Both the position numbers and the translations under genes were made by a program. A stretch of 52,471 nt of DNA from Comamonadaceae bacterium. Lineage in GTDB: Bacteria > Pseudomonadota > Gammaproteobacteria > Burkholderiales > Burkholderiaceae_C. Every line of letters starts with the position of its first letter. Position 1 is the stretch's first letter. The notes under the pieces were generated by a model. It was given only the letters and a program-made list of their open reading frames with translations, was not told the origin of the DNA and ran no database searches. Positions 23,911-27,996 of the stretch are shown piece after piece. The stretch lies in contig CANCUP010000003.1 of the NCBI GenBank assembly GCA_947381325.1, positions 1 to 52,471 of the forward strand, read 5' to 3'.

Positions 23911-24435
23911 ATGTCCAGCACCCTCTCTTTCCAAGTACGCCCTGCCTCCCCTCAAGACGCTGCCCACATCGCCGAACTCTACGCAGCCACCGCCAAAGAA
24001 GCCTTCCAGTCGATGCGCACCGGCGCCTCAGTGCCGCCCGTGCCAGAAGCCAAGAACACCGCCTACTGGCGTGAAGCCATCCAATACGCCGAGCCCCAGG
24101 TGCAGGTGGCTGTGGCGGGTGGCCAGCTGATTGGCTTTGTGGGTTATGACCGCTCACGCGACAAAGGCACACCCAACACCATGGGCGAGATTTGGGACAT
24201 TTATGTCAGCCCCAGCCACTGGGCGCAAGGCGTGGGCCTGGCGCTGTGGGACGCGGCACGCGAAGGCCTGCAAGAAGAAGGCTGCACCCATGTGTCCATC
24301 TGGGTGCCGATTGCCAATGACCGCGCCATGCGCTTTCATGAGCTGGCTGGCTTCAAGCGCGAGATGAACAGCGCCAAAACCGTGCCCATGGGTCCGGTGA
24401 AGGTGGAAGAAATTCGCCTCAAGCAAGCGCTGTGA
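23911..24435 (+). CDS. GNAT family N-acetyltransferase
   Basis: 174-residue acetyl-CoA-dependent acyltransferase. The acetyl-CoA-binding motif A is clear: IYVSPSHWAQGVGLALWDAA, with the Q-x-x-G-x-G/A-like pyrophosphate loop. It is followed by motif B around AMRFHELAGFKRE. The N-terminus FQVRPASPQDAAHIAELY is typical of the fold. The substrate is unknown; peptides, antibiotics, polyamines or ribosomal proteins are all possible. The stop is 10 bp before the J-domain gene, and the genes onward to 27996 follow at short intervals, so it probably heads that transcription unit. Confidence 0.88.
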   Translation: MSSTLSFQVRPASPQDAAHIAELYAATAKEAFQSMRTGASVPPVPEAKNTAYWREAIQYAEPQVQVAVAGGQLIGFVGYDRSRDKGTPNTMGEIWDIYVSPSHWAQGVGLALWDAAREGLQEEGCTHVSIWVPIANDRAMRFHELAGFKREMNSAKTVPMGPVKVEEIRLKQAL

Positions 24436-24445
24436 TGCGCAAGCG

Positions 24446-24739
24446 GTGAACCACGTGTCAGAACATTACGCCGCCCTCGGGCTCAAGAGCGATGCCAGCT
24501 TGGCTGACATCAAGAAAGCCTTTCGCCAAAAAGCCTCGCAGTTTCACCCCGACCGCAACACGGACGAGGACGCCCCCGCACGCTTTCGGGCTGCGCAAGA
24601 GGCCTACGAGGTGCTGTCAGACGACGCCAAGCGCCAAGCCTATGACGACAACCGCCGCCGCAACTTGCTGGACGACCCCGCACAGACGGCACGCGAAATC
24701 TGGCACAGCTACTTTCAGCAACTGCTCAACCGGGCTTGA
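24446..24739 (+). CDS. J-domain-only protein (DnaJ-like co-chaperone)
   Basis: 97 residues. A complete J domain (about 6-69) with the HPD motif at 34-36 (FHPDRN) that stimulates Hsp70/DnaK ATPase; helix II is basic (KKAFRQKASQ) and helix III is ARFRAAQEAYEVLS. There is no Gly/Phe region, zinc finger or substrate-binding domain, so it is a class C J protein that must be targeted by its last 25 residues (QTAREIWHSYFQQLLNRA) or by partners. The start is a GTG at 24446. Its stop lies 2 bp before the next gene. It heads a set of three unrecognised genes, which suggests a dedicated DnaK job. Confidence 0.9.
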   Translation: MNHVSEHYAALGLKSDASLADIKKAFRQKASQFHPDRNTDEDAPARFRAAQEAYEVLSDDAKRQAYDDNRRRNLLDDPAQTAREIWHSYFQQLLNRA

Positions 24740-24741
24740 CC

Positions 24742-25287
24742 ATGCACATTTCCCCTTTCTTTCAAGAGCTGCGCTCGGCCTACCAAGCTGAGTTGGACGA
24801 CCTGAGTTTTGACTCGGACGGCCAACACGTGCTGCACAAACGCTTGGCTGAAAAACGCCAGGCCATGACGTTTTTGCTGCAAATGATGGACCTCAACCCC
24901 GAGATGGTGGCGGTGGTCTTGCACCAAGCGTTTCAGTTCAACGCCCCGGCCATGATGGACCACTTGTTGAGCCGCGAGGCCGACGAGCTGCTGAGTTGGG
25001 ACGAGCTGTCTGACAGCTTGCACATCGCCCCCTGGGCACAACCCATTGTGCAAACGGCATTGAGCGAGCCCACCGGTGCCTGGTTTTTGACGGTCGCTGC
25101 GGCGCTGGAGTACATGCACCAAAAGCCCATGGGCGCCGCCGCACAGACAGCCCGCACTGAAGCCGACGACGATGCCACCGAACGCGCGCACGCCGGACCC
25201 GAGGACGAAGAAGAACGCGAAGCCCGCGCGCGCGAGGAAGCGGGCAACGCCTGGATGGTGGAACAAGGCTTTGACAGCAAAGAATAA
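24742..25287 (+). CDS. unrecognised protein with acidic C-terminal tail (J-protein cluster, gene 2)
   Basis: 181 residues, family not recognised. It has no signal or membrane segment. The first 130 or so residues look helical, with a hydrophobic stretch MTFLLQMMDLNPEMVAVVL and an acidic segment SREADELLSWDEL. The last 40 residues are strongly charged and probably disordered, dominated by Glu, Asp, Arg and Ala (EDEEEREARAREEAG). The ATG at 24742 is 2 bp after the J-domain stop, implying translational coupling. The next gene, 15 bp downstream, also ends in an acidic tail. A shared scaffold or chaperone-client role is only inference from position and composition. Confidence 0.8.
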   Translation: MHISPFFQELRSAYQAELDDLSFDSDGQHVLHKRLAEKRQAMTFLLQMMDLNPEMVAVVLHQAFQFNAPAMMDHLLSREADELLSWDELSDSLHIAPWAQPIVQTALSEPTGAWFLTVAAALEYMHQKPMGAAAQTARTEADDDATERAHAGPEDEEEREARAREEAGNAWMVEQGFDSKE

Positions 25288-25302
25288 ACAAGGACACACG
25301 CC

Positions 25303-26049
25303 ATGAACGCACTCGCCCTGATTGCCAAAACCCTAAGCCTGATCGCCAGCGGCGACATCGTGGCTGCCGAAGCGGCTTTGGTGGAGCTGGCCGACACCGA
25401 GGGCGACCAAGCCCTGATGGTGGTGCTGGAGCAATTGCCGCCCAAAGACATCTTGGCCGTGATTCGCGAGTACGACAACTCCAAAGAATCGGTCATCAAC
25501 CTGCTGGTCTCGCCCGAGCAGTTCGCGCGTGCCGTGGTGATTGAAAAACAATACAAAGACCTGACGCGTACCCACCTGCGCGGCATGATGAACGCCATCA
25601 TCTTTCGCGAAGACGCCGACCCGGTGGAGTTTTTGACTGCCATTGGTGACCTCGAAGGTGGCGCAGAAGCCCTGGCGGACTACTTCTCTGAAAAGTGGAG
25701 CCGCGTGGAGGCCTTTGCCCGCACCGGCACGTTTGAGACGGTGGAAGACGACGGCGACATCTTGTCCGAGAGCGCTCTGTTGGGCTCGGCCTACATCAAG
25801 CCCCGCGTGGATGAAGACGAAGTGGCCGACCAAGACTGGATGCAACTGGCTTGGATCCTGCGTTACAAACTGCCCGATTTGTTCATTGAGATGCTGCTGG
25901 TGCTGCGTGCCAAGGCACGCGCCCATGACCTCGGGCTGGCTGAAGAAGAAGGCGCTGACGAGGACGACGACAAGGTCGAGACCAGCGCCACCGACCGTGG
26001 CCAGGCCACGCCAGCGGCACGCGACTCGGACGAGGAGTCGGCCATTTGA
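25303..26049 (+). CDS. unrecognised acidic protein (J-protein cluster, gene 3)
   Basis: 248 residues, family not recognised. Predicted all-helical and soluble. The N-terminus has a repeated helical look (LSLIASGDIVAAEAALVELA), followed by LVSPEQFARAVVIEKQYKDL and DLEGGAEALADYFSEKW. The C-terminal 35 or so residues are acidic and low complexity (EEEGADEDDDKVE). Putting two consecutive genes with acidic tails behind a J-domain gene is unusual. The ATG at 25303 follows an AAGGA-containing leader (ACAAGGACACACGCC) with fair spacing. It overlaps the next gene by 4 bp at TTGA. Confidence 0.8.
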   Translation: MNALALIAKTLSLIASGDIVAAEAALVELADTEGDQALMVVLEQLPPKDILAVIREYDNSKESVINLLVSPEQFARAVVIEKQYKDLTRTHLRGMMNAIIFREDADPVEFLTAIGDLEGGAEALADYFSEKWSRVEAFARTGTFETVEDDGDILSESALLGSAYIKPRVDEDEVADQDWMQLAWILRYKLPDLFIEMLLVLRAKARAHDLGLAEEEGADEDDDKVETSATDRGQATPAARDSDEESAI

Positions 26050-27275
26050 GCCCCCACCCCACCCCGCCCAGCACAGCCACCCACGTGGCGATGTTCGATG
26101 GCCGTGCATTTTTTGAAAAAGCCTTGGTGTTTGGGGTGCAACACGGCATCTTGGACCCAGCCCGGCTCGACGCCATCGCCACCGATGCGCCCAAAGGCAT
26201 GGTGCAAATTGCGCGCTACTTTGGCAGCGAGTTTTTACGGCCCGAGATTGAAAAAGCCAAAGACCGCATCGTCAATTTGGTGAGCCTGAACCTGGAGCTG
26301 CTCAGCGGCGGCGACTTGGCCCAAGCCGCGCAAGCCCTGCGCGAACACTCGTTCATGTCGCGCTCTAAGGCGGCATCCGACATGCTCAAAGCCCTCATCG
26401 TGATGCCCCAAAACACCCACTTCGGCATGAACGAGCACGGCGGTTTCAGCGACAAACACATCCCCCAATTGGCCAAGTGGTCGCTGTGCACCTTGGCCGA
26501 CTACCAAGCGGAATTGGCCAAGCGTCAACAAGTAGCCCACGTGATCGAAGCCGCCATTTGGCTGGCCGAGACCATGGGCCTGGGTGCCGACGACCTGGAA
26601 GAAGCCGGTTGTGACGCAGAAGCCGTCATTCGCACCGCCTTGCTCGCTGGGGCTACCCGACAGACCCAATGGCCCGACTGGGTGGCGTTTCAAAAAATGG
26701 TCACCACTCTGCGCGCATCCAGTGCCAAGAAGGCCATCACGCTCGCCTGCCCCAAGGCCCTGCCTGCGGCCTACAAGGCCGCCGTGGATGCGGTGCTTGC
26801 CAGCGTGCAAGCCGATTTGCCCAGGATCTTGGACGCCACCCTCACCCCGCACAAGCTGTTCAACCAAACGCCGGCTTTTGTGGGCCGCTATTTTTGGTTG
26901 GAAGACGGTTTGTCCGAGGTGGACCACTTTGACCGCCAAGCCTCTGTAGCCTGGCACAAAGCCACCGCCGGTCACAGCGACGACAGCTCGTTGCTCACTT
27001 TGTTCTTGTGCATCGCGGCGGGCAGCCCAGGCAAAACCTTGCTCACCGAAAAAACTGCCGCCACGCTGGTGCGCAAAATTCGCAAGTCGGGCATGAACCC
27101 GGCCTTGGCCCAGCAGTTCATTGCAGAGCACGCCCCCGTGCAGCACCAAAGCGACTACCTGCGCATGTGGCACAGCTTTGTGGACGACGCACAGGCCACG
27201 CTCGAGAGCGACCACGACTACAAGCTGCACGATGCCCTGGCCTTGCTGCGGCGCGAATGCAACGTGAGCGATTGA
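26046..27275 (+). CDS. unrecognised protein (J-protein cluster, gene 4)
   Basis: 409 residues, family not recognised. It is soluble by composition and mostly helical, with no nucleotide-binding or catalytic motif that I can name. Segments that look well ordered include FDGRAFFEKALVFGVQHG, IARYFGSEFLRPEIEKAKD and TPAFVGRYFWLEDGLSEV. Start: a TTG at 26046 overlaps the previous stop (TTGA) and has GAGGAG 8 nt upstream; a GTG at 26085 or ATG at 26091 (MFDGRAFFEKAL) is possible but lacks a Shine-Dalgarno sequence. It ends 7 bp before the DTW gene. Its place, coupled to gene 3, suggests a joint function. Confidence 0.8.
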   Translation: MSPHPTPPSTATHVAMFDGRAFFEKALVFGVQHGILDPARLDAIATDAPKGMVQIARYFGSEFLRPEIEKAKDRIVNLVSLNLELLSGGDLAQAAQALREHSFMSRSKAASDMLKALIVMPQNTHFGMNEHGGFSDKHIPQLAKWSLCTLADYQAELAKRQQVAHVIEAAIWLAETMGLGADDLEEAGCDAEAVIRTALLAGATRQTQWPDWVAFQKMVTTLRASSAKKAITLACPKALPAAYKAAVDAVLASVQADLPRILDATLTPHKLFNQTPAFVGRYFWLEDGLSEVDHFDRQASVAWHKATAGHSDDSSLLTLFLCIAAGSPGKTLLTEKTAATLVRKIRKSGMNPALAQQFIAEHAPVQHQSDYLRMWHSFVDDAQATLESDHDYKLHDALALLRRECNVSD

Positions 27276-27282
27276 ACGCGGC

Positions 27283-27996
27283 ATGCCTCACGCCGTCTCG
27301 CGTCTGCGCAGCGCCCGCTTGGCGCGCAGCGTCAAACCATTTTTGGCAAGAGGCGGCCCCAAGGGCGAGCGTTGCGCGGGCTGTCGACTCATCTTGAGCC
27401 ACTGCCTGTGCGCACTGCGCCACAGCGTGCCCACCCGCTCGGGCATGTGCCTGCTCATGGCCGACATTGAACCGCTCAAACCCAGCAACACCGGCTGGCT
27501 GATTGCCGATGTGGTGCCAGACACCTTCGCCTTTGGCTGGGCCCGCACAGAAGTCGACCCCGCCTTGTTGCGCTTGTTGGCCGACCCGCAATGGCAAGGC
27601 TATGTGGTGTTTCCTGGAGAGTTTGTGGCGCCTGAGCGTGTGGTGAACCAGGTGAAACACGACCACGCACGCCGCCCACTGTTCATCATGCTCGACGGCA
27701 CCTGGGCCGAGGCACGCAAGATGTTCCACAAAAGCCCTTACCTCAACCAGCTCCCGGTGCTGAGCCTGAACCCAGAGCAGATGTCGCGCTACACGCTGCG
27801 CCGCTCCAAACGCGACGACCACTTTTGCACCGCAGAGGTCGGCGCCATGTGCTTGGAATTGGCCCATGACACGCATGCCGCCGACACCTTGAATGCCTAC
27901 TTGGATGTCTACACCGAGCACTACCTCAAGGCCAAACACCAACAAGCGGTGGACTTGGACGATGCCGTGCACAGGGACTTGCGCGCCTTGCGTTGA
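27283..27996 (+). CDS. DTW-domain tRNA-uridine aminocarboxypropyltransferase (TapT/YfiP-like)
   Basis: 237-residue DTW-family protein. E. coli TapT (YfiP) transfers the aminocarboxypropyl group of SAM to U47 of tRNA. The N-terminal cysteine cluster Cys31, 34, 41 and 43 (ERCAGCRLILSHCLC) fits the zinc-like site, and the DTW-type motif appears as IMLDGTWAEARKM, followed by LSLNPEQMSRYTLRRSK. The ATG at 27283 starts just after the cluster gene 4 stop; a basic 25-residue leader precedes the cysteine cluster. The 62-bp gap to the RbgA-like gene carries no terminator. The context with other RNA-related genes supports a tRNA role. Confidence 0.9.
   Translation: MPHAVSRLRSARLARSVKPFLARGGPKGERCAGCRLILSHCLCALRHSVPTRSGMCLLMADIEPLKPSNTGWLIADVVPDTFAFGWARTEVDPALLRLLADPQWQGYVVFPGEFVAPERVVNQVKHDHARRPLFIMLDGTWAEARKMFHKSPYLNQLPVLSLNPEQMSRYTLRRSKRDDHFCTAEVGAMCLELAHDTHAADTLNAYLDVYTEHYLKAKHQQAVDLDDAVHRDLRALR

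Follow-up and report, generated by a model that had tools for sequence, protein, structure and literature searches.

The closest described system is the atcJABC operon of Shewanella oneidensis MR-1 (SO_1850, SO_1849, SO_1848, and SO_1846), as presented in excerpts of PMC6715715. AtcJ of this bacterium is a 94-residue protein made up of a J domain and 21 further residues; it stimulates DnaK 3.3-fold, and its last 21 residues are the part that binds AtcC (Kd 7 nM). AtcC and AtcB bind each other directly, and no partner of AtcA was found. Cells lacking atcJ, atcB, or atcC grow poorly at 7°C, whereas cells lacking atcA do not (PMC6715715, excerpts). According to part of a meeting report, AtcB also contacts RNA polymerase (PMC7871303).

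Here we describe a locus that can be aligned with this operon gene by gene. It lies on contig CANCUP010000003.1 of a Comamonadaceae bacterium (assembly GCA_947381325.1), in a stretch of 52,471 nucleotides that we call the window. Four closely packed open reading frames occupy positions 24446-27275, all on the + strand: the J gene, initially delimited as 24446-24739, gene 2 (24742-25287), gene 3 (25303-26049), and gene 4 (26046-27275). The original prediction, made from the sequence alone, had placed the four genes exactly so, with gaps of 2, 15, and -4 bp. It had also stated that it knew of no system composed of these genes. The idea of a new system is not supported: the set is that of atcJABC, for which the NCBIfam models NF050028, NF047888, NF047889, and NF047890 exist. 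Judged by homology, the locus is an atcJABC operon that has diverged from the described one; it adds a member to the known system, one in which AtcC and the ends of AtcA and AtcB show changes specific to the lineage. Our overall reading, which we regard as very probable, is that of a betaproteobacterial atcJABC operon in which AtcJ, AtcC, and AtcB would bring DnaK to a target limiting at low temperature. Three unannotated families, found in many records of Limnohabitans, Rhodoferax, and Polaromonas, are thereby tied to a DnaK co-chaperone network whose biochemistry has been studied. Among the open-licence PubMed Central papers on Atc proteins that we consulted, none describes a betaproteobacterial atcJABC operon. 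A 2023 study by Weber reportedly describes a P-x7-W motif in the AtcJ extension and is said to cover beta- and gammaproteobacteria; if it lists these genera, the betaproteobacterial operon is already known. This 2023 paper (Weber) is referred to in a portion of PMC10939069.

Searches with single proteins give the locus only a faint signature. The J protein matches the Pfam DnaJ domain (PF00226) with an E-value of 5.4e-22 and an intact HPD, and no other Pfam domain scored above cut-off, in agreement with the predicted J domain without a substrate-binding part. The initial lead consisted of three weak NCBIfam Atc matches in the correct order. The J protein aligns along almost the whole AtcJ model NF050028 at 60.1 bits against a cut-off of 150, and is outscored there by general DnaJ models of NCBIfam; protein 2 matches AtcA (E 0.0093, 15.8 bits against a cut-off of 200) and protein 4 matches AtcC (E 0.12, 11.8 bits against 370), and protein 3, the AtcB candidate, has no NCBIfam match whatever. 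None of the window proteins reaches the curated cut-off of any of the four equivalogs, so they are not members of these families as currently defined. The original prediction had not placed proteins 2-4 in any family; this holds insofar as no Pfam or NCBIfam family scored above cut-off with them, but not once profiles are compared, which pairs them with AtcA, AtcB, and AtcC (see below). No NCBIfam HscB model matched the J protein at E ≤ 1. Sequence searches of the PDB returned nothing at E ≤ 1 for AtcC, and best E-values of 0.062 for AtcB and 0.33 for AtcA. The single-chain structure models of AtcB and AtcC are almost entirely helical and matched no PDB entry by fold with E ≤ 0.001, so we assign them to no fold family. 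Weak Pfam matches to CUE, Fucose_iso_N2, MgtE_N, and FliG_C, all below cut-off and each occurring in 1-4 of 18 members, were dismissed as chance.

The kinship with atcJABC rests on profiles built from many loci. A search with the AtcC model across the order of genome G680 matched 28 of 197 genomes at E ≤ 0.001, 24 of the 197 over the cut-off. From 15 reference-side stretches, 11, all from genomes passing the AtcC cut-off, were taken as the reference set, which serves as a proxy for the curated NCBIfam Atc models rather than for a verified species. One reference locus scanned with all four Atc models (L156) passes every one (181/150, 272.9/200, 487.8/440, and 512/370 bits, score/cut-off), and another (L162), scanned for AtcJ and AtcA, passed both. 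Window-clade profiles (95 J, 96 A, 97 B, and 88 C rows, with shorter or cut rows and L019-L024 excluded) matched their 11-row reference namesakes with E-values, each referring to a single comparison, of 1.3e-21 for J, 7.5e-9 for A, 1.4e-4 for B, and 2.4e-7 for C, the B link being the weakest of the four (probability 52.6%, 56 columns). Likewise, hmmsearch with the window-clade profiles against the reading frames of the 15 reference-side stretches hit each gene at its expected place, with E-values, calculated for this small set, of 5.5e-21 for J (L156), 1.7e-13 (L159) to 5.7e-5 (L158) for A, 6.4e-6 (L157) to 9.8e-4 (L163) for B, and 4.8e-12 (L156) to 1.2e-4 (L160) for C. That the window could instead hold an unrelated, new J-protein operon resembling atcJABC in layout only might be argued from the sub-cut-off NCBIfam scores and from the modest direct match of AtcB to the reference. 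Four namesake matches in the same order argue against this, as does the failure of all 12 mismatched gene pairs (E 0.082 or worse), and the AtcJ tail motif is common to the window clade and the reference; we consider a purely formal resemblance extremely improbable.

Intermediate sets bridge, and thereby strengthen, the B and C links. Window B matches a type-II set (L105-L110) with E 8.5e-12 and a gamma set (L165-L168) with E 2.2e-5, the gamma B in turn matching reference B with E 6e-17, and L165 B matching NCBIfam AtcB with E 1.1e-22; window C matches type-II C with E 1.5e-12. By these comparisons the kinship of window and reference is clear, but it is not upheld for every pairing of the four sets: window A does not match type-II A (E 0.35) and reaches E 0.018 with gamma A, window C reaches only E 0.073 with gamma C, and the reference compares with type-II at E 0.018 for A and 0.06 for B. 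Beyond their homologous A, B, and C proteins, the reference loci passing the Atc models share with the window an acidic AtcA tail, and S. oneidensis shares with it the gene order. The type-II loci, a second, divergent type of J/B/C operon, resemble the window in having AtcB- and AtcC-like proteins with an adjoining J protein, whereas the protein in the place of AtcA has no detectable relation to window AtcA. One of them (L110) departs from the common order, with its J gene on the opposite strand, 3' of atcC.

We placed atcJ at 24455-24739 (+ strand), since GTG 24455 is more likely to be the start than the in-frame GTG 24446: L025, whose AtcB is 97% identical to that of the window, has an in-frame TAG at the position of GTG 24446. 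The product is a short J protein of 94 residues, the published length of S. oneidensis AtcJ; its HPD is intact, and all that follows the J domain is a short C-terminal extension (24674-24739, + strand, about 21 codons plus stop) that contains P-x7-W and, by analogy with S. oneidensis, is expected to be the hook for AtcC. We counted 96 J rows from L001-L018 and L025-L104 (94 distinct), which are related, so that the counts are not independent. HPD is kept in all 96, the last being cut by its contig, and P-x7-W is present in the window and in 93 of the 96, as well as in 11/11 reference rows. It is missing from L012, L016, and L017, where AtcJ lacks the W of the motif and the operon is still kept; these are natural variants of the hook. 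Among the five J rows of L019-L024, which stand outside this count, two have the full motif and three have the W but no P.

A gene for a GNAT acetyltransferase (23911-24435) stops 10 or 19 bp 5' of atcJ, depending on the atcJ start, and also sits before atcJ in the nearest relatives; therefore atcJ may be co-transcribed with it. A scan for signals was uninformative, with 0 promoter-like sites against 0.9 expected and 10 terminator-like sites against 8.4 expected. The 2 bp between atcJ and atcA contrast with 120 bp in S. oneidensis and with the 8-24 bp that 74 of the 80 genomes compared by its authors show (PMC6715715, excerpts).

Acidic, disordered-looking tails had been predicted on two of the proteins. 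The tails are indeed found, on the products of genes 2 and 3, but rather than trailing off they end in strongly conserved motifs. The atcA homologue (24742-25287, + strand) encodes 181 residues with an acidic linker followed by a conserved end, [ED]QGFD standing close to the C-terminus in 86 of 96 rows. The mean majority share is poor in the linker (0.36-0.39 over residues 131-160) and 0.88 at the end (171-180), in line with a tether whose end serves for docking. The atcB homologue (25303-26049, + strand) encodes a helical protein of 248 residues with a low-confidence acidic tail (pLDDT below 50 from residue 215 of the structure model) and the end DEESAI. Of the 95 rows of at least 230 residues, 94 end in E-E-[SL]-A-[IL], 80 of them in DEESAI. 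The stretch ahead of this motif is better conserved (mean majority share 0.59-0.81), and because of this the tether reading is weaker for AtcB than for AtcA. Judging from sequence, both tails resemble tethers that carry a function at their end. Their conserved motifs differ from those of the reference set: EQGFD in window AtcA is unlike the Shewanella and reference ends, AtcB closes with DDMFSFLD or a near variant in the reference rows, and five type-II AtcB rows end in [LM]GxDIF[SA]. The conserved tail motifs offer simple peptides for testing.

A further change concerns AtcC. The atcC homologue (26046-27275, + strand) encodes 409 residues from TTG 26046, which overlaps atcB by four bases, or 394 from the in-frame ATG 26091; either may be the start, and the relatives compared showed no uniform pattern. 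AtcC has 296-305 residues in the 11 reference rows, 297 in S. oneidensis, and about 286-305 in the type-II loci. The core matches, and the window protein has some 110 additional C-terminal residues (298-409; 26937-27272, + strand) that are absent from the 11 reference proteins and from type-II AtcC. Cut at residue 298, this extra part resembles the protein's own core at residues 187-264 (E 1.4e-4, probability 52%); its match to type-II AtcC is weaker (E 0.0012), and AtcA, AtcB, and reference AtcC gave E 0.03 or worse. Duplication of the core is thus a likely, though not proven, origin. One could imagine from these features a clamp rebuilt in this large betaproteobacterial clade, in which AtcC gained a core-derived C-terminal helical module and the EQGFD and DEESAI ends dock, on their acidic tethers, a client other than that of Shewanella. 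We regard this as a doubtful proposal; if true, interchangeable tail motifs would deliver DnaK to a different machine.

A 65-residue stretch of a gamma-type AtcC (L165:1741-2661) barely exceeds the cut-off of Pfam DUF6178 (25.6 versus 25.5 bits), hinting that DUF6178 shares part of the helical AtcC core; window AtcC reaches E 0.02 with this model. Its length of 561 positions raised the idea of an origin as an AtcB-AtcC fusion; the AtcC side touches the model, but scans of 27 AtcB proteins (3 + 18 + 6) gave no match to it, and we do not claim such an origin. A literature search on the word DUF6178 found no paper.

Conservation of the operon was followed in relatives retrieved by a collection search with window protein 3, the best 80 loci of 157 relatives being used; their records belong to Limnohabitans, Rhodoferax, Polaromonas, Comamonadaceae, and similar. 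Five of these best 80 are cut by their contigs; the remaining 75, all long enough to hold J, A, and the start of C, have the order J-A-B-C on one strand without exception (75 of 75). Median gaps are 12 (J/A), 18 (A/B), and 16 bp (B/C), and gaps of at most 50 bp occur in 76/79, 71/79, and 70/78 cases, respectively; the smallest value, -358, is an artefact of start choice. This is in keeping with the coordinated unit inferred from the spacing: the genes are not scattered in these relatives, nor did they turn out to belong to families with unrelated functions. Across genomes, the operon is patchy. AtcB was matched in 7 of 61 genomes (own genome included), in 5 of 37 within the genus, and in 20 of 300 across the order, representing 14 of 135 genera, where six of the 20 are weak, partial matches some 75 residues long. 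With the AtcC alignment, 18 of the 300 order genomes were matched, all within these 20; of the two others, G088 has a locus (L014) that stops about at the end of atcB, and G287 has an AtcC detected at the locus nonetheless (E 1.3e-10). The AtcC model NF047890 matched 0 of 229 class genomes, a result that, by the search's own control, is no evidence of absence. Because the AtcJ model NF050028 catches any J domain (matches in 367 of 369 class genomes, over cut-off in 0 of 369), we left it out of the distribution analysis. The patchy occurrence (20/300) suggests a niche trait.

Patchiness also bears on the question of function. An operon homologous to atcJABC might serve under another stress or act on another DnaK client, cold growth not being its main job. 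The longer AtcC and the AtcA and AtcB ends unlike the reference would suit such a role, and S. oneidensis expresses its operon between 7 and 37°C, the authors allowing for another role (PMC6715715, excerpts). Yet neither the J domain nor the P-x7-W hook nor the gene order has been lost, so the core wiring has probably stayed unchanged, and we rate a different main job as somewhat unlikely. The preferred reading, a cold role, is itself carried over from S. oneidensis by analogy. Under it, the J domain of AtcJ would recruit and activate DnaK, and the short C-terminal extension would plug into AtcC around P-x7-W. AtcC would hold AtcB, and the AtcC-AtcB pair would position DnaK on a particular target limiting in the cold, perhaps RNA polymerase, if the lead from Shewanella applies; AtcA would be an accessory member. 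We infer that the S. oneidensis wiring (J activity, AtcJ-AtcC and AtcC-AtcB binding) holds in the window organism, the binding steps being assumed because the genes are homologous and the motifs conserved. The parts that stay constant despite deep divergence are the HPD, the P-x7-W hook, AtcC residues 51-80, and AtcB residues 21-90, so the mechanism is to be sought there.

The original prediction had foreseen a class C J protein in a dedicated DnaK role, encoded beside partners that may target DnaK; the genes stay together, and the S. oneidensis AtcJ-AtcC-AtcB chain is of this kind (PMC6715715, excerpts). The partners need not be scaffolds, however: AtcC or AtcB could be a client that AtcJ passes to DnaK for folding. 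HscB, which has a C-terminal domain of its own, works with IscU, the Fe-S scaffold. Like the window locus, HscB/IscU combines a J domain and a small partner-binding part with a partner encoded in the same operon, and it is discussed as a precedent for class C J proteins devoted to a particular client (PMC6715715, excerpts). AtcJ moreover raises the melting temperature of S. oneidensis AtcC from 31°C to 44°C, but the Kd of 7 nM seems to the authors too tight for a hand-over (same excerpts), and AtcB is reported in contact with RNA polymerase (PMC7871303, in part). A client role for AtcC or AtcB is therefore unlikely in our estimate, and we retain the targeting scaffold.

Two further observations concern the surroundings and copy number of the operon. 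A DTW-domain gene (27283-27996) starts 7 bp past atcC; among 25 genomes of the same genus it is present in exactly the four with atcB, the DTW flank having no match in the 21 of 25 without atcB. Clade inheritance or a functional link may account for this co-occurrence. Finally, one Polaromonas MAG (NZ_JACPOF01 records) carries two different atcJABC operons, L056 and L090, each on a contig of its own, representing either a duplicated operon or a mixed bin.
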